From assembly GCA_021820165.1 (NCBI GenBank), contig JAKADW010000016.1:1-13566 (forward strand): a DNA stretch of 13,566 nucleotides, read 5' to 3'. Positions within the stretch are counted from its first letter, which is position 1, and the number at the start of each line of letters is the position of its first letter. The notes beneath the pieces are model-generated. The model had not been told where the DNA came from, made no database searches, and saw only the letters and a list, made by a program, of their open reading frames with translations. Both the position numbers and the translations under genes were made by a program. Origin of the DNA: Bacillota bacterium (lineage in GTDB: Bacteria > Bacillota_E > Sulfobacillia > Sulfobacillales > Sulfobacillaceae). Shown here piece by piece: positions 597-11,477 of this stretch.

Positions 597-1541
597 ATGC
601 GTGCGTTGTTTGCGAAACAGCCTGGAGGGCCACTAGCCATCCGCGAGGTAGCCAAACCCGTACCCCAAAGTAACGACGTGGTGGTACGCATGGAAGCGGC
701 GGGAATCAATCCGAGTGATATCAATAACGTGGTGGATGGGAGGTTCCCTGAGACGACGTTTCCGTGTATCCCGGGCCGGGATTTTGCTGGAGTGGTCGTG
801 GAAGGCCCTCCCTCATGGAAAGGACAACCGGTGCTGGGTTCGGTTAGTTCCCTCGGATTCACGCGGCCGGGGACTCATGCGGAATACATATCCGTGCCGA
901 CGGATGCTTTGGTACGGCGTCCGGAATCCCTTCCTGTATCCCAAGCGGCGGCACTCGGCGTGCCCTTCACAACCGCTTGGATGGCTCTTCTGGTTCGTGC
1001 AGGGCTTCAACCAGGGGAGACGGCTTTGGTCACTGGGGGGCGTGGTGCCGTGGCCACTGCCGCTCTTCAAATAGGGCGTTGGGCCGGAGCCAAAATGATT
1101 GGGGTGAGCCACGGTCCGCCCGAGGCGGCGGATGGGGTGACCTGGGTTAAGCTTCAGCCTGGATGGGCGGACGAGGTTTTGGACGTCACCGAGGGTCGTG
1201 GCGTAGACCTGGTGTTCGACATGGTGGGAGGTGAAGGATTCCGGGAATGTCAAGAGGCGTTGGGCTATCGTGGCCGCATGGTGGTGATTGCCTCGCCAAG
1301 CCACCCGATCGTGAGCCTGCCGGTGGTCGATTTCTATCATCAAGAGCAGACGTTGATGGGGGTAGATAGTCTGAAGTTCACGATTGCCGAGATCCGCCGT
1401 CTATTGGAGCGGGTCGTTTCCGGGATTATTTCCGGACATCTTTCCGGCCTTTCAGTATCCCCGGCCCCTTTGACGAATGCGGTTGACGTGTACATGAACC
1501 TGAAGCACGGCACACATGGAAAATGGGTGCTCTTAAATTAA
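597..1541 (+). CDS. Zinc-independent MDR-family oxidoreductase (quinone oxidoreductase-like)
   Basis: A 314-residue medium-chain dehydrogenase/reductase, the usual length for NADPH:quinone oxidoreductase or enoyl-reductase members. The N-terminal GroES-like domain covers about residues 1-120, with the family phrases AAGINPSDIN and IPGRDFAGVVVEG. The Rossmann domain begins with ETALVTGGRGAVATAALQIG near 141-160, a variant of the usual GAxGGVG loop. The GHE zinc motif and structural cysteine cluster are absent, so it should be zinc-free. Such enzymes transfer hydride from NAD(P)H to quinones or conjugated carbonyls in the cytoplasm; the substrate is unknown. The start chosen is ATG 597, because GAGGTGG at 585-591 lies 5 nt upstream; the GTG at 588 lies inside that site. 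Its stop codon interlocks with that of the convergent redoxin gene. Confidence 0.85.
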   Translation: MRALFAKQPGGPLAIREVAKPVPQSNDVVVRMEAAGINPSDINNVVDGRFPETTFPCIPGRDFAGVVVEGPPSWKGQPVLGSVSSLGFTRPGTHAEYISVPTDALVRRPESLPVSQAAALGVPFTTAWMALLVRAGLQPGETALVTGGRGAVATAALQIGRWAGAKMIGVSHGPPEAADGVTWVKLQPGWADEVLDVTEGRGVDLVFDMVGGEGFRECQEALGYRGRMVVIASPSHPIVSLPVVDFYHQEQTLMGVDSLKFTIAEIRRLLERVVSGIISGHLSGLSVSPAPLTNAVDVYMNLKHGTHGKWVLLN

Positions 1542-1975
1542 TCTGGGAGTGCTGCTAGGGCTTGCCGGAAGTCTGGCAGATCCCGCATGGTTCGCCCGTG
1601 ATGCGTATAGACTTCGGTGCCCAAGGCATTCAATAGGATGAGCCCCGGCATTCGGCCAAGCTTCCACCAGGACGTCTCTTGGCCGAGACGATTTAATAAT
1701 GTTCCACGCGGATCGGGAATGGCCCAGAACGTGAATTGATGGGTCTCCCAGTACGACTGAATGCGTCCCGGCGGGTCTGGGGTAATCACCAGCACTGTCA
1801 CGCCTTGTTTCTGTATGCTGGGGAGTTGGTGATGGAGCTCCACGAGTTCCTTTTGGCAATAGGGTCAGGTGAGGCCTCTCAAAAGCACCAGCATAAGCGG
1901 AAGTTTGTGCCCTAAGAGCTCGCGAGAAACGGGGTCTCCTTTGAGGTCGAGGGCAGCGAATTCAGGAAGGTCCAT
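1538..1975 (-). CDS. Putative selenoprotein: thioredoxin-fold/peroxiredoxin-like protein with UxxC motif
   Basis: Read on the minus strand from ATG 1975-1973, with AGGAGG at 1990-1985 upstream, this frame runs 145 residues to TAA (1540-1538) with one interruption: TGA at 1867-1865, codon 37. The region reads LLRGLT-(TGA)-PYCQKELVELH, where AhpC/TSA- and Prx-like2-type proteins have RGxxCPYC. So TGA replaces the first cysteine of the CxxC, giving U37-P-Y-C40. The rest of the fold is intact: the strand VTVLVITPD at 59-67, then GRMPGLILLNALG at 107-119 with the cis-proline (P110) typical of thioredoxin folds. A hairpin fitting the bacterial SECIS pattern follows the TGA. If translated, it would be a selenium-dependent thiol oxidoreductase or peroxidase. 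Translation could only restart at GTG 1843, losing the active site. The alternatives are a point-mutated pseudogene or a base-calling error (TGC/TGT to TGA). Automated annotation would probably truncate or miss it. Confidence 0.75.
1834..1850 (-). promoter_or_regulatory. Candidate bacterial SECIS hairpin
   Basis: On the minus strand GGAACTCGTGGAGCTCC folds as a 7-bp stem (GGAACTC with GAGCTCC, one A-C mismatch) closed by the loop GTG. It begins 15 nt after the in-frame TGA, and the first loop G lies 22 nt after it. Known bacterial SECIS elements have a short stem, a small apical loop with G in the first two positions, and that G roughly 16-37 nt after the UGA; all three hold here. The sequence is also coding (ELVEL), so the match could be partly chance. 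Confidence 0.55.
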
Positions 1976-2083
1976 CAATCATGTCCTCCTCAAATATTTT
2001 TTCTGACGGCCAGCATTTTTTCGTGTAAAGTCTAAAGATTATCATTAAATGACGGGTGCCATGGGAATGGAAGGCGAATTAAT

Positions 2084-3403
2084 TTGCGTGTCTTTATGAA
2101 ATATCCGGGCTTTCGCTGGCTTTGGTCGGGTCAACTCCTATCCCAATTGGGTAACGCGGTTTTCTACATTCTAGGCCTTTGGGAGATTCAGTTGAAGTCC
2201 CCATTTTTACTATCGGTGGCTGGGATGGCAGTGACGGTTCCCGCCATGTTAGGGCTTTTCGGTGGGGTTTTGGTGGACCGACTGGATGCCCGTCGAGTGA
2301 TGCTGATAACCGATCTCTTCCGAGGGACGGCGGTGTTGTTGGGACTGTTTGCGCTGGCTATTCCCCACGCCTTGGTCTGGGTGGTGATTGGGCTATTAGC
2401 AATTAATTCGCTCGGCATGGCCTTTTTTGGACCGGCTGAAAGCGTTATGGTTCCCCATATGGTGTTGGAGCACGATCTGACCGAGGCCAATGGATTCTAC
2501 TCACTGACCAGTCAGTTATCCGCGGCGGTCGGTTCGGCTTTGGGCGGCGCGGCTGTGGCGGCGATTGGGGTATCCTTGGTGTTTGGCTTGGACATGGCCT
2601 CGTTCTGGATTTCCGCTCTCGCGATTTGGCTTATGATGCGGACCGTGACTCGTCCCGGGCGTCCGGCAGCTGATCGGGATCCAACCGTCCGGCCGGCGGG
2701 CTTTCTGACCAGCTTTGCCGAAGGACTGCGCGCCTTTCGATCGATTCGGGTGTTAAGTCGTCTGCTCCCGTTAATTGTGCTCATGAACTTTGCCTTTATG
2801 GCGGCCTTTGTCATGTTGCCAGCCTGGGTCCGCCTTCATCTTCACGGGACGGCCGTCTGGTATGGCATTATCGATGCATCGTGGGCGTTAGGTGTTGTGC
2901 TGGGAAGCGTGTTGAGCGGTCAATTTAGCCGTATGCCACTGAAAACTGCACTGCTCATCACGTTCTTAGTGGAGAGCGTCCTTTTCGTCGGGTTCGGGTT
3001 GTCGCCCTGGGTGACGGTGTCGGCCGCCATTCTGCTGGTAGCCGGTGTCGCCAACGGCATCGGAAATGCGTTAAGTTTTACCTGGATGCAGCGCCTCATT
3101 CCCGGCTCCATGAGAGGGCGCGTGTTCGGGCTGATTATGACGGTATTTTCTCTAGCCAATCCGTTCGGGTCATTGGCCGCAGGCCTCTTATGGCATGTGC
3201 TGCCGGGGATTTGGGCTTGGGCTTTGTCTTCTCTAGCGGGGTTATTATTTTGCATCGGTTTATGGCGCATGCCGGGAACCTTGGAAGAGGCCGTAACCAT
3301 CGAGGGGGCTTTCGAATTGGGTCAGAAAATTGCGCAGGCGTTCGAATCTTCTCATATGATGCCGAAACATCTTTGTAAAAATTGCCTGGTAGCCTTTATG
3401 TAG
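2084..3403 (+). CDS. MFS transporter, MFS_3/DHA3-type exporter
   Basis: A 439-residue, very hydrophobic protein with about 12 membrane segments. It opens with YPGFRWLWSGQLLSQLGNAVF, characteristic of the MFS_3/DHA3 group (macrolide-efflux and enterobactin-exporter relatives). Between TM2 and TM3 is GGVLVDRLDARRVMLITD, the family's motif A loop, and the C-terminal half has a matching MRGRVFGL segment. It probably exports a small molecule by proton antiport; the substrate is unknown. The chosen start is TTG 2084, about 9 nt after GGAAGG at 2069-2074; the alternative ATG at 2096 would drop four residues and lies about 21 nt from that site. The last 40 residues after TM12 form a hydrophilic tail with an odd HLCKNCL cysteine pair. 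The divergent redoxin gene starts about 110 nt away, so the 1976-2083 spacer must hold promoters for both. Confidence 0.85.
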   Translation: MRVFMKYPGFRWLWSGQLLSQLGNAVFYILGLWEIQLKSPFLLSVAGMAVTVPAMLGLFGGVLVDRLDARRVMLITDLFRGTAVLLGLFALAIPHALVWVVIGLLAINSLGMAFFGPAESVMVPHMVLEHDLTEANGFYSLTSQLSAAVGSALGGAAVAAIGVSLVFGLDMASFWISALAIWLMMRTVTRPGRPAADRDPTVRPAGFLTSFAEGLRAFRSIRVLSRLLPLIVLMNFAFMAAFVMLPAWVRLHLHGTAVWYGIIDASWALGVVLGSVLSGQFSRMPLKTALLITFLVESVLFVGFGLSPWVTVSAAILLVAGVANGIGNALSFTWMQRLIPGSMRGRVFGLIMTVFSLANPFGSLAAGLLWHVLPGIWAWALSSLAGLLFCIGLWRMPGTLEEAVTIEGAFELGQKIAQAFESSHMMPKHLCKNCLVAFM

Positions 3404-3424
3404 AGGATGAGGAGGTGGCCCGCA

Positions 3425-3592
3425 ATGAATGACAGGGAAACGGCACAAGCGACACGGACGTTGGCCAAAGTGATTATGGTCCAACAAATTCTCGGCGAGT
3501 CGGCGACTTTGGACCAAATCTTTCACGTCATAAGGCGGGAAGGGTCGGCTATGGGTGCTGAGTTCAGCCGCCAACATCCCCAGGCAGGCTAG
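3425..3592 (+). CDS. Small unknown protein, 55 residues
   Basis: This short frame begins 22 nt after the MFS stop and has an excellent Shine-Dalgarno, AGGAGGTGG at 3410-3418, 6 nt before ATG 3425. The in-frame ATG at 3407 overlaps that site and is unlikely. The product has no membrane segment, no cysteine and no signal peptide. The sequence from about residue 5 to 40 (TAQATRTLAKVIMVQQILGE, then LDQIFHVIRREG) looks amphipathic and helical, which would suit a small helical bundle. I do not recognise a family. Its position suggests co-transcription with the upstream transporter. Confidence 0.6.
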   Translation: MNDRETAQATRTLAKVIMVQQILGESATLDQIFHVIRREGSAMGAEFSRQHPQAG

Positions 3593-3617
3593 TGGGGGAC
3601 TAACCTGAGCCGGTTGA

Positions 3618-3626
3618 TGGTACAAT
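3618..3626 (+). promoter_or_regulatory. Extended -10 promoter abutting the second MFS gene
   Basis: TGGTACAAT is a TGn-TANNAT extended -10, with TACAAT at 3621-3626. Exactly 6 nt separate it from the ATG at 3633, so transcription should begin at or within a base or two of the start codon, giving a leaderless or nearly leaderless mRNA. No convincing -35 or well-spaced Shine-Dalgarno is present. Confidence 0.5.
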
Positions 3627-3632
3627 GAGGAC

Positions 3633-4874
3633 ATGTTTTCCTCGGGGGCTCATCTAAAGCCGGTGACACGGCTCTTTCTCATTCAAACCGGTTGGACGCT
3701 AGCCATGTTTCTAGCGTCCAACTTCGTGGGGGCCTGGTTCTGGGACATTGGTACCGGGCTTCGGTCGATTCTTCTCTTTTACGCACTCATCTTTGTGATG
3801 ATGGTGACGAGCTTTGGGCTCGCTTCGAGGATTCGGGGACGGATTTCGAGTCCGCTTTTGATGACGCTGGGCATTATTTTGAACGCGCTCTACCTGGCCC
3901 TTTTATTAATTCTTAAGACCAAGACCCGCGAGTATTTTATCCCACTGGCACTTCTCGATGGCCTTTCATCCAGCTTCTATTGGCTCAGTCTGTTTGTCTT
4001 GGCGTCATCATGGGTGGAGTCGGGCCAAGCTTCCTGGTACAACAGCTGGACCGGGACCATTGAAGCGGTGTTGGGCTTGCTGGCTCCGGTCATGAGTGGT
4101 TGGGTGATTCGAGTCCTGCCGGGATTGGCTGGATATCGCACGGTCTTTTTTATTGCTTTTGTGAGTCTTTTGGCTTGTGCTTGGCTCATTTTGACAGCTC
4201 ACCATCGCTTGCCTAAGTCCCAACCGGAAGAGTGGGACGCCCCTTCTTCGACCCCTGTGGAGATTCCGGGATGGCGACGGCTTAGCTGGAGCTTTTGGGC
4301 GCTGGGGATGCGCGACGGCGTATACTTTTTCGTGCCAAGCCTGCTGTTATTTATTGTGACCGACAATACCGTCTTGTTGGGGACATTTGCGGCCATGCAG
4401 GCAGCCATTGAGGGAGGGCTCTTTTGGGCATTGACCCGCTGGTCGGGCGCGTTGGCTGAAGAAAAAGGGCTGTTTGCGGCGATGCTGGTCTCGTTGACGG
4501 CCCTCGGGCTTCTAGTTCTCCCGTTAACCGCCGTGGTGCTCTTCCTCTTGGGGGCGGCGATTGCCATCTCCTATCCATCGTTTAAGGTTCGTCTGGAATC
4601 GGCGGCCCTCACGGCGATTACCCAGGTGAGTCGAGACGACCAAGACCGGGTTCGATTGACGGGTCTTAAGGAAGTCTGGATTAATGGGGGCCGACTGATG
4701 AGTCTTCTCATTGTGCTCGGAATCGTCACCTTGATTGGTCGCCCAGACCTACGAGTGTTTCGGTGGATTCTTAGCCTCTGGTCGTTTGTGGCAGTGGTCT
4801 TGTTTTTCACCGCCCGGCGTCTGCCCAGGGCCCAAGCGCTAAAAAACTCGTCGGATAGCGCGCCCCAAAGCTGA
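3633..4874 (+). CDS. MFS transporter of unassigned subfamily
   Basis: A 413-residue integral membrane protein with about 12 hydrophobic segments in two halves. They are split by a hydrophilic loop near residues 188-212 (AHHRLPKSQPEEWDAPSS). The second half begins with SFWALGMRDGVYFFVPSLLLFIV, a pattern seen in MFS proteins annotated as YqgE/YxiO-like. The classic motif A is degenerate (SRIRGRISSPLLM), so a substrate cannot be assigned. ATG 3633 is preceded only by GAGG at 3627-3630, too close to work as a normal Shine-Dalgarno, while a -10 box sits 6 nt upstream, pointing to leaderless translation. A third MFS gene follows 12 nt after the stop in the same direction. Confidence 0.8.
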   Translation: MFSSGAHLKPVTRLFLIQTGWTLAMFLASNFVGAWFWDIGTGLRSILLFYALIFVMMVTSFGLASRIRGRISSPLLMTLGIILNALYLALLLILKTKTREYFIPLALLDGLSSSFYWLSLFVLASSWVESGQASWYNSWTGTIEAVLGLLAPVMSGWVIRVLPGLAGYRTVFFIAFVSLLACAWLILTAHHRLPKSQPEEWDAPSSTPVEIPGWRRLSWSFWALGMRDGVYFFVPSLLLFIVTDNTVLLGTFAAMQAAIEGGLFWALTRWSGALAEEKGLFAAMLVSLTALGLLVLPLTAVVLFLLGAAIAISYPSFKVRLESAALTAITQVSRDDQDRVRLTGLKEVWINGGRLMSLLIVLGIVTLIGRPDLRVFRWILSLWSFVAVVLFFTARRLPRAQALKNSSDSAPQS

Positions 4875-4880
4875 TATCAT
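4872..4880 (+). promoter_or_regulatory. Extended -10 promoter abutting the third MFS gene
   Basis: TGATATCAT (4872-4880) is an extended -10 with TATCAT at 4875-4880. It overlaps the TGA stop (4872-4874) of the preceding gene and lies exactly 6 nt before ATG 4887, the same geometry as the promoter-like element before 3633. There is no good -35, and only AGG at 4884-4886 just before the ATG. Confidence 0.45.
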
Positions 4881-4886
4881 CATAGG

Positions 4887-6086
4887 ATGCGTGCACTCTC
4901 CAATGCTCAGATTTTTCTCGTCAGCGAATTCCCCTGGTCGGTCACCATGGCTTGGATGGGGTCATATCTCACCCTGTTTCTTGTCGACGAACACTTAAGT
5001 CCCCATCAAGTGGGATTGGCGTTGGGGTTGGGCGCTTTCGTGCAGGTCATCGGCCTGGGTTTCTCAGGGATGCTGGCGCGCCGTCTGGGGCGAAAGGGAA
5101 GCATCATGAGCGGGGACTTTCTTGGCTGGGTGGTTGTGCTGGGCCTATGGACGCTCTCCCGGAATCCTTGGTGGTTATTCTTAGGCGTGGTAATTAATCA
5201 AGCCATGGGGATGGTGGGGCCAGCCTGGAATAGCCTCTTTAGCGCGGGAGAGGACCCGGTAAAGCTACCCCGCTATTTCTTTTTGCTGCAGATGGCTACC
5301 GTGTTGGGGGGCCTGGTGTTGCCCCTGATGGAAGGATGGATTTCAAAACGGGGTGTGGTTTTCACGGGCCATCACCTGCTTTGGATTTTGTGGCCGGCAG
5401 TATTGATGGCGTGGTTGACGCGGCTTGTCTTCTTGAGGGAGCCGAAAGGCGCCAGCCAATCCACCTCGCCGATTGGGTTTCGGGCCATCGCCGCGCACTT
5501 GCGTCAAGGAATCGCTGGAACTGGGGCGGTACTAGCAGGACTCCGCATTCTCATCCAAGTGCCACTGGTCTTGTTCGCGAACTTAGCCCCCTTGGCTTTG
5601 GTGTCGTCCGCAGGGACCGACTTGCCGCCTAGCCGCTTAGCCTGGCTTCCGTTGGCGGCAGTAGTATCGGCTCTGGTCCTCTTGATGGTGCAAGCCAAGA
5701 CAGATAGCCGACACAGCCGCATGTTAATGGGACTGGCGGTGCTCTGGTTGGGACTCGGGTTTCTTCTACTAGTTCTGACCGGCCCCGGTCACTTCTGGCG
5801 GGTCATGGTCGCCTGGGCCCTCATTGTTGCGGGGCAGAGTCAGTTTTGGACGAGTCATACCAGTTATTGGATGTCCTGGCTTCCCGACTCGGTGCGGGTC
5901 GACGTGCAAGGGTGGATTGGGGTGGTCACGGCGGGGCTGGTGGCTATTTTGTCACCGATGTTGGCTCCAGTGTTCGCCCATGCCCCTCGGTTGCTCTTTT
6001 CTGGTGGGGTGATTCTGATTGTCATCGCCCTCGCCCTCTGGACTCTCCTACCGAGACAGCTGGCATTTTCATCAGCGAACGAATGA
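4887..6086 (+). CDS. MFS transporter, third in tandem
   Basis: A 399-residue membrane protein with about 12 hydrophobic segments. A clear MFS motif-A-like loop lies between TM2 and TM3 (GMLARRLGRKGSIMSGD, about residues 66-82), with a long central loop around residues 183-208 (REPKGASQSTSPIG). It differs clearly from its two MFS neighbours, so the group does not look like a recent tandem duplication. The substrate is unknown. ATG 4887 is the first start after the previous gene's stop (4874), and it has almost no Shine-Dalgarno. The last residues, LLPRQLAFSSANE, form a short cytoplasmic tail. Confidence 0.8.
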   Translation: MRALSNAQIFLVSEFPWSVTMAWMGSYLTLFLVDEHLSPHQVGLALGLGAFVQVIGLGFSGMLARRLGRKGSIMSGDFLGWVVVLGLWTLSRNPWWLFLGVVINQAMGMVGPAWNSLFSAGEDPVKLPRYFFLLQMATVLGGLVLPLMEGWISKRGVVFTGHHLLWILWPAVLMAWLTRLVFLREPKGASQSTSPIGFRAIAAHLRQGIAGTGAVLAGLRILIQVPLVLFANLAPLALVSSAGTDLPPSRLAWLPLAAVVSALVLLMVQAKTDSRHSRMLMGLAVLWLGLGFLLLVLTGPGHFWRVMVAWALIVAGQSQFWTSHTSYWMSWLPDSVRVDVQGWIGVVTAGLVAILSPMLAPVFAHAPRLLFSGGVILIVIALALWTLLPRQLAFSSANE

Positions 6087-8633: not shown

Positions 8634-8693
8634 GTTCCGACAACACATGAGTATATCGGGAAGAGATCGGTAGCGATGGATGGGGAGAGGGAG

Positions 8694-9050
8694 ATGTCCG
8701 AGCTCGTTATTTTGGGCGAGTTATACGATACGCCCATGCATGGGTATTTGTTGCAACAAATCTTAACTCAAGTGTTAGGTCCCATGCGAACGGTGAGTTG
8801 GGGCATGCTCTATCCGGTGTTGCAACGATTGCATCCGGAAGGTGTCACTGCCCTATCTAAGGCGAACAGGAAGGCGACTGGCCGCCCGAAAAAGGTGTAT
8901 GCCATTACTGAACAGGGGCGTATCCAATTTCGGCGGTTAATGGCCAGACCTTTGGACCACAACGCCGAATCAGAGGATATCTTTCGTATAAAGTTAGCCA
9001 AGTTTCATTTGGTTGACCCCCCTTCGTGTGGAGATTTTGTCACAGTATAA
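8694..9050 (+). CDS. PadR-family transcriptional regulator, N-terminal part, frameshifted
   Basis: The N-terminal 110 or so residues are a PadR winged helix: MSELVILGELYDTPMHGYLLQQIL, then GMLYPVLQRLHPEGVTAL, the wing GRPKKVYAITEQGRIQFRRLM, and DIFRIKLAKFHLVDP. ATG 8694 is preferred over ATG 8676 because GGGGAG at 8682-8687 lies 6 nt upstream. The natural C-terminal helices do not continue in this frame. After VDPP the frame gives SCGDFVTV and stops at 9050, whereas frame +1 from about 9019 continues as LRVEILSQYKALLELVLDA, the expected PadR dimerisation domain. The switch is at a C6 run (9017-9022). PadR proteins bind DNA as dimers through that C-terminal domain, so this 118-residue product should not repress normally. 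PadR genes often regulate an adjacent exporter, which fits the MFS gene downstream. Confidence 0.75.
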   Translation: MSELVILGELYDTPMHGYLLQQILTQVLGPMRTVSWGMLYPVLQRLHPEGVTALSKANRKATGRPKKVYAITEQGRIQFRRLMARPLDHNAESEDIFRIKLAKFHLVDPPSCGDFVTV

Positions 9051-9234
9051 GGCGCTCTTGGAATTGGTGCTGGACGCGGTGGCGATTACCCGCGATCGCG
9101 TGATCGGGGAACCGCAGATTAGTCATGACGAGCGGCCCGATATCTTAGAAGCCCTTGATTACGAGACCGCCGTTTACGCGGCGCGTTTGCACTGGGTGGA
9201 GCAGTCATTAGGAAAGGCGAAAGGCGGGGAAGCC
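9019..9234 (+). pseudogene. PadR C-terminal dimerisation region, now out of frame with its N-terminus
   Basis: In the frame of the downstream transporter this stretch encodes LRVEILSQYKALLELVLDAV, then ALDYETAVYAARLHWVEQSL, the helical C-terminal domain of PadR regulators (the [EY]-x2-[VY]-x-A-x3-W-[IVL]-E pattern). No stop separates it from the MFS gene, so one long frame runs 9013-10998. Losing one C from the run at 9017-9022 would restore a continuous PadR reading (VDPLRVEIL) and would produce a PadR-MFS fusion unless the transporter starts on its own at GTG 9235. The stretch is either a broken part of padR, a region joined by frameshifting, or evidence of a one-base error. Confidence 0.6.
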
Positions 9235-11223: not shown

Positions 11224-11298
11224 GCGGAAGTAGCTCAGCGGTAGAGCATCGCCTTGCCAAGGCGAGGGTCGCGGGTTCAAATCCCGTCTTCCGCTCCA
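11224..11298 (+). tRNA. tRNA-Gly(GCC)
   Basis: Full cloverleaf: acceptor GCGGAAG pairs with CTTCCGC, the anticodon loop is TTGCCAA with GCC at 11256-11258, and the T arm is GCGGGTTCAAATCCCGT. The discriminator is T and CCA is encoded. U73 and anticodon GCC identify glycine. Confidence 0.97.
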
Positions 11299-11318
11299 AG
11301 TTTTCGCCTTATCATCCC

Positions 11319-11393
<75 letters not shown>

Positions 11394-11399
11394 AGGTTT

Positions 11400-11477
11400 G
11401 GGTGGTTAGCTCAGTTGGTTAGAGCGCTCGCTTGACATGCGAGAGGTTCAGAGGTTCGAGTCCTCTACCGCCCACCA
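11400..11477 (+). tRNA. tRNA-Val(GAC)
   Basis: Acceptor GGGTGGT pairs with ACCGCCC (one T-G pair). The anticodon stem CTCGC/GCGAG encloses TTGACAT with GAC at 11434-11436. The T arm is AGAGGTTCGAGTCCTCT, the discriminator is A and CCA is encoded. It starts 6 nt after tRNA-Cys, and the T-rich tract 11478-11489 directly follows it. Confidence 0.97.

Follow-up and report, generated by a model that had tools for sequence, protein, structure and literature searches.

The stretch of DNA analyzed in this study (13,566 nucleotides, hereafter the window) comprises positions 1 to 13,566 of contig JAKADW010000016.1 in the GenBank assembly GCA_021820165.1 of a Sulfobacillus-like member of the Bacillota. 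Its minus strand carries the gene of a small redox protein (redoxin) that very probably uses selenocysteine (Sec) as its key active-site residue. The features of this gene are as follows.

1538..1975, minus strand: putative Sec-containing redoxin gene of 145 codons, starting at ATG 1975 or TTG 1978 and ending at TAA 1540-1538
1985..1990, minus strand: Shine-Dalgarno sequence AGGAGG, upstream of ATG 1975
1865..1867, minus strand: in-frame TGA, the proposed Sec37 that opens a UxxC motif, from translation and from conservation in relatives
1856..1858, minus strand: TGC, Cys40, the second UxxC position, aligned with the Cys of T(P/S)GC peroxiredoxins
1834..1850, minus strand: hairpin GGAACUC-GUG-GAGCUCC with one A.C mismatch, resembling a selenocysteine insertion sequence (SECIS), its loop beginning 21 nt after the UGA, at the position of the relatives' hairpin
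1646..1648, minus strand: Pro110 of a GRMP motif, invariant in 29 sequences and aligned with a Pro of 3hdc, a protein of the thioredoxin family, and with the Arg of two peroxiredoxins

Translation of the minus strand from 1975 to 1538 gives 145 residues, with a single TGA at residue 37 within RGLT-U-PYC and a TAA at the end. This agrees with a preliminary description of the DNA, which had proposed a redoxin starting at ATG 1975 behind a strong Shine-Dalgarno sequence (AGGAGG at 1990-1985), with the TGA at the redox-active position; TTG 1978 is an alternative start codon. The product matches the Pfam family AhpC-TSA (4.5e-13; 49.7 bits, cut-off 26). As had been expected, ordinary open reading frame (ORF) calling yields only a 101-residue piece in the redoxin frame, at 1538-1843, which begins with GTG 1843 downstream of the TGA. 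That start codon would suit programmed termination, in which a 36-residue peptide and a separately started 101-residue protein are made, but neither half holds the whole site and the Cys forms described below are single full-length proteins, leaving this explanation very improbable. Between the window gene and its Sulfobacillus harzensis counterpart, differences fall mainly at third codon positions, and they do so past the TGA too (37, 26 and 63; p = 8e-5), which is the pattern of a translated frame. A scan of the window for further TGA-interrupted frames with a redox motif returned two places, both unconvincing.

The TGA is conserved among relatives. A first scan of genome contigs with the single window sequence found no relative; the counts that follow refer to 80 genome loci, the best 80 of 326 confirmed relatives. 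All 80 have TGA at the UxxC codon and no second stop within the matched range. By tree rows, the loci belong to Bacillota, Chloroflexota, Thermomicrobiota, Actinomycetota, Acidobacteriota, Latescibacterota and Myxococcota, with many records being metagenome bins. A plasmid copy in Thermomicrobium roseum likewise has TGA at the aligned codon (RGLR-U-PYC), and in the incomplete gene table of PLSDB this copy appears only as a hypothetical protein whose 129-nt coding sequence ends at the TGA. Among 42 genomes of the order of S. harzensis (Sulfobacillales), a match was obtained in 23 and a full-length orthologue in 21, G021 and G023 having only weak partial matches; the UxxC pattern used on these genomes was loose, and unrelated places that also matched it were disregarded. 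Each of the 21 full-length orthologues has exactly one internal stop, a TGA at the UxxC codon, and none has another stop in the matched range. No match to the redoxin was found in the phage collection searched.

These counts bear on the possibility that a nonsense mutation or sequencing error produced the TGA and the gene is broken. TGA ordinarily means stop, and one TGA-bearing relative, L179 (G314), has a second in-frame stop (TAA), a result against Sec decoding; this copy is perhaps decaying or a sequence error. However, a single stop at the same codon throughout the 80 loci and the 21 orthologues disfavors a nonsense codon arisen by chance, and the third-position bias continues past the TGA, so that a broken gene is extremely unlikely. 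In the Chloroflexota sample, additional stops occur in the matched range of G241 (TAA), G314 (TAA) and G125 (a second TGA), the position of the TGA having been viewed in the fetched copies of G097, G241, G125 and G314 and in the loci of G005, G012 and G013. In the more distant Chloroflexota homologues L173, L174, L175 and L176 the aligned codon is again a stop (TGA), giving UPNC, ULSC, UPNC and UMQC, respectively; these are possibly further Sec subfamilies.

Homologues with Cys at this codon, which had been named as a test of the proposal, exist: Cys aligns with the TGA in P0015 (RGFTCPFC) and L167 (RGLVCPFC). The true Cys forms seen are few. On the tree, a quick one with many open forks, 11 Cys rows require eight state changes, indicating that Sec and Cys were interchanged several times. 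As the key residue is written as a stop codon, databases tend to end or begin the protein at this point. When the window protein was used as a query, three proteins came back; each was truncated, and one was the window's own piece. Among 236 database proteins fetched (from the best 120 of 321 and the best 120 of 7864 matches), 140 begin past the Sec codon by a pattern-based count, 76 have W at this position, nine Cys, two Arg and one Leu; the remaining eight did not fit the pattern, and reading them by eye gave Cys in P0132 and W in three.

The 76 W entries could suggest that another tRNA reads the UGA as Trp or Cys. From the protein records we infer instead that W is the gene caller's output for TGA under translation table 4; the codon is TGA in all 80 loci. 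In addition, genes of the order called as tRNA-Cys match the tRNA-Sec model, and selC-like tRNA-Cys with a UCA anticodon is known elsewhere (PMC7609411). Against such a reading, the anticodon is GCA in 12/12 of the order's tRNA-Cys genes that were inspected, tRNA-Sec(TCA) is found in 29 of the 42 genomes, and SelD bears a TGA of its own in 38/38; decoding by another tRNA is therefore a very remote prospect. UGA 1867-1865 is very probably decoded as Sec. The tRNA-Cys(GCA) genes in question, from Sulfobacillales genomes, are L166, L223-L231, L234 and L235 (89-95 nt), which match the tRNA-Sec model and are called tRNA-Cys(GCA) by ARAGORN (L166 together with 11 of the 13 second hits that were checked); they resemble the selC-type tRNA-Cys of PMC7609411.

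The Sec machinery, which the preliminary description had asked to be sought, is present in close relatives. Over curated cut-offs, SelB was found in 38, SelA in 36 and SelD in 38 of the 42 order genomes, and SelD itself contains one TGA in every case. The tRNA-Sec model was over its cut-off in 31 genomes; it over-calls, with 5 of 14 control genomes also exceeding the cut-off. ARAGORN called 29 of the 31 best hits as tRNA-Sec(TCA). S. harzensis, the nearest in the tree, has selA, selB, selC and selD. Of the 21 carriers of the redoxin gene, 17 have all four Sec genes by the models, or 15 after setting aside G047 and G002. The 14 genomes tested first gave tRNA-Sec(TCA) by ARAGORN in 12 and SelB over cut-off in 12. 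Within the order, co-occurrence is uninformative since carriers (SelB in 20/21) and non-carriers (18/21) hardly differ, whereas among 400 sampled Chloroflexota genomes SelB occurs in 46 of the 47 with a close TGA orthologue compared to 310 of all 400 (P = 4.5e-5, a value that is optimistic because the sampled genomes are related). Putative Sec-containing formate dehydrogenases have been reported in all genomes of a Sulfobacillus genome paper (PMC4378227).

Several of the same results weigh against Sec decoding. Among the 31 tRNA hits, that of G047 was called tRNA-Cys and that of G002 is cut by a contig end. The carrier G052 (1.7 Mb) yielded none of the four Sec genes, SelA and selC were not found in the carrier G020, and selC was not found in the carriers G049 and G051. 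SelB was not found in G097 and was not over cut-off in G009 and G011, the same holding for SelD in G009, and tRNA-Sec was not found in G008. Absence is weak evidence in the order, as many of its assemblies are drafts. For the window's own genome, the presence of the machinery is presumed from its relatives.

Past the UGA, relatives share a conserved hairpin. The counts cover 97 sequences, L112, L117 and L126 (the same genes as L002, L003 and L005) and L033 (identical to L019 over the compared part) having been dropped beforehand; L129 and L132 were missed by the pattern although the TGA is visible in both. Order relatives mostly have a stem of the type GAGCUC-GGN-GAGCUC with the loop after 21 nt, unbroken over 6-8 bp at 20-21 nt in 18 of 20 sequences, while other relatives mostly have GGCGC-AGUU-GCGCC with the loop after 25 nt (AGUU in 69/77). 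Both types agree with the published bacterial SECIS (bSECIS) pattern, which places a G within the first two loop positions and has a spacing of 16-37 nt (PMC13188914), and the window hairpin likewise agrees in its GUG loop and 21-nt spacing. Compensated pairs occur in the order (G-C to C-G and T-A) and elsewhere (G-C to A-T, C-G to T-A), and when each gene's own synonymous codons were redrawn, 0 of 1000 trials reached the observed pairing. The Leu codon of the loop is TTG in 76/77.

Other results for the hairpin are unfavorable. The window copy is not stable by energy alone: at -5.1 kcal/mol it falls short of the published limit of -7.5, 119 of 200 shuffles were at least as good (z 0.33), and the A.C mismatch, shared by L125, breaks its stem. 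Of seven hairpin regions compared with shuffles, L001 and L008 alone stand out; folding energy by itself gave no support for a SECIS in the window, L002, L113 and L125, and weak support in L127. Permuting codons within alignment columns came close to the observed pairing both in the order (A: mean 111, maximum 114, observed 116) and elsewhere (B: mean 463, maximum 468, observed 469), which indicates that the signal is mostly column-wise constraint and in smaller part covariation. Complete stems (16 in A and 15 in B) were reached by 5 and 66 of 1000 permutations, respectively, and in B the outermost stem pair is formed in just 18/77. As a separate lead, it was considered whether the redoxin hairpin resembles the SelD hairpin of its own lineage. 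This fits the Sulfobacillales, where 12 of 16 SelD genes have a GGA or GGC triloop, with L219 (G014) as an exception and with row L193 of the comparison having been read at the wrong stop.

The preliminary description had called the product peroxiredoxin-like, which holds for the fold but calls for a refinement as regards the site. In the fold predicted with Cys modelled at residue 37, the best VIA-align matches are Bcp/AhpE/AhpC peroxiredoxins and the top Foldseek match is ResA. Peroxiredoxins are recognized by a TxxC site and a catalytic Arg; here U stands at the Thr position and an invariant Pro at the Arg position, so that the usual peroxide site is missing. The CxxC of ResA and 3hdc lies at the place of the window's UxxC, and 3hdc has a Pro at the place of Pro110 (the ResA alignment shown ends before it). 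The site thus resembles those of thioredoxin-type thiol:disulfide oxidoreductases, here set on a peroxiredoxin-like fold. Unlike ResA-type oxidoreductases, the window protein has no signal or anchor visible by eye and contains GRMP and SMRDLP-type motifs.

It is also possible that the same Sec protein is a peroxidase, with Sec37 reducing hydroperoxides and Cys40 resolving. The AhpC-TSA assignment and the peroxiredoxin matches would fit such a role, and a Sec peroxiredoxin, PrxU, is reported as up-regulated in Sulfobacillus thermotolerans (PMC7409299). Sec peroxiredoxins (TxxU) share the Pfam family and fold of the window protein, but its Sec occupies the Thr position and not the peroxidatic one, and the replaced Thr and Arg make a peroxidase doubtful; a thiol:disulfide oxidoreductase is somewhat favored.

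The known proteins nearest in kind are the peroxiredoxin-like (Prx-like) thiol:disulfide oxidoreductase selenoproteins (PF00578, UxxC/UxxU), which are defined by an AhpC-TSA domain and a UxxC motif, both present in the window protein; where Sec peroxiredoxins have TxxU, these proteins have UxxC (PMC1088965, PMC13188914). Such UxxC proteins, to whose existence the preliminary description had appealed, were described in a Sargasso Sea survey (PMC1088965) and are listed in reviews of 2022 and 2026 (PMC9312934, PMC13188914); the likeness to published examples (e.g., WP_010940744.1) is one of domain and motif, not of compared sequences. The Global Ocean Sampling (GOS) paper (PMC2398784) divides them into several subfamilies. 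Passages of two Sulfobacillus papers (PMC4378227, PMC7409299) contain Sec formate dehydrogenase and PrxU, and the redoxin was not found in them. The nearest NCBIfam model, that of the SelL-related redox protein family NF040769, was matched by 29/29 members scanned, with 57.7 bits for the window protein and 89.9 for the best of the 29, both below the cut-off of 120.

Taken together, the best explanation is a Sec redoxin with a peroxiredoxin-like fold and a thioredoxin-type site in a Sulfobacillus-like bacterium, to which we assign a probability of roughly 0.85. The product would probably be a cytoplasmic selenoprotein. SelB and tRNA-Sec(UCA) would decode UGA 1867-1865, guided by the short hairpin about 21 nt downstream; Sec37 would act as the nucleophile, Cys40 would resolve it as a selenenylsulfide, and the invariant Pro110 would take the place of the active-site Pro of thioredoxin-type proteins. 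Disulfide reduction is the most likely reaction and peroxide reduction the less likely, with electrons presumably drawn from thioredoxin. The redoxin is a well-supported addition to the known UxxC Prx-like selenoproteins and to the selenoproteins of Sulfobacillus-like bacteria, and its family is wide and prone to truncation at the catalytic residue by gene calling. Whether the family is a distinct, Sec-dominated subfamily in which a thioredoxin-type UxxC-plus-Pro site is combined with a peroxiredoxin fold is evenly balanced; it would span at least seven phyla, score below the cut-off of every NCBIfam model matched, be often cut or mistranslated in databases, and have a lineage-dependent hairpin apex (mostly a GGN triloop in Sulfobacillales and mostly AGUU elsewhere). 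The family, in which Cys forms are scattered among common Sec forms, is a good system for studying why a lineage keeps Sec, and for asking if a peroxiredoxin fold with Sec at the Thr position yields a disulfide reductase.

The surroundings of the gene are shared with S. harzensis, whose redoxin gene is likewise flanked by a zinc-dehydrogenase-like gene and three transporter-like genes, and whose 3-hydroxyacyl-CoA dehydrogenase shares 83% identity with the one encoded in the window. In the tree, the window sequence pairs with S. harzensis (SH-aLRT 94) inside an order branch of 20 sequences (99). A Fur-like box upstream of the redoxin gene (2049-2031, minus strand, 14/19 matches) was examined and set aside; shuffles gave 1/100 in the window and 1/100 in L115, but the box is unconserved over 20 upstream regions, and therefore no regulation is claimed. 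The three consecutive transporter-like genes lie at 2084-6086 on the plus strand in an order kept in S. harzensis; the first, the only one scanned, belongs to the major facilitator superfamily (MFS). Compared with S. harzensis, a PadR-type regulator gene (8676-9230, plus strand) appears to carry a frameshift, which leaves its C-terminal half in frame with the transporter ORF that follows, and a Gly-Cys-Val tRNA cluster occupies 11224-11477 on the plus strand.
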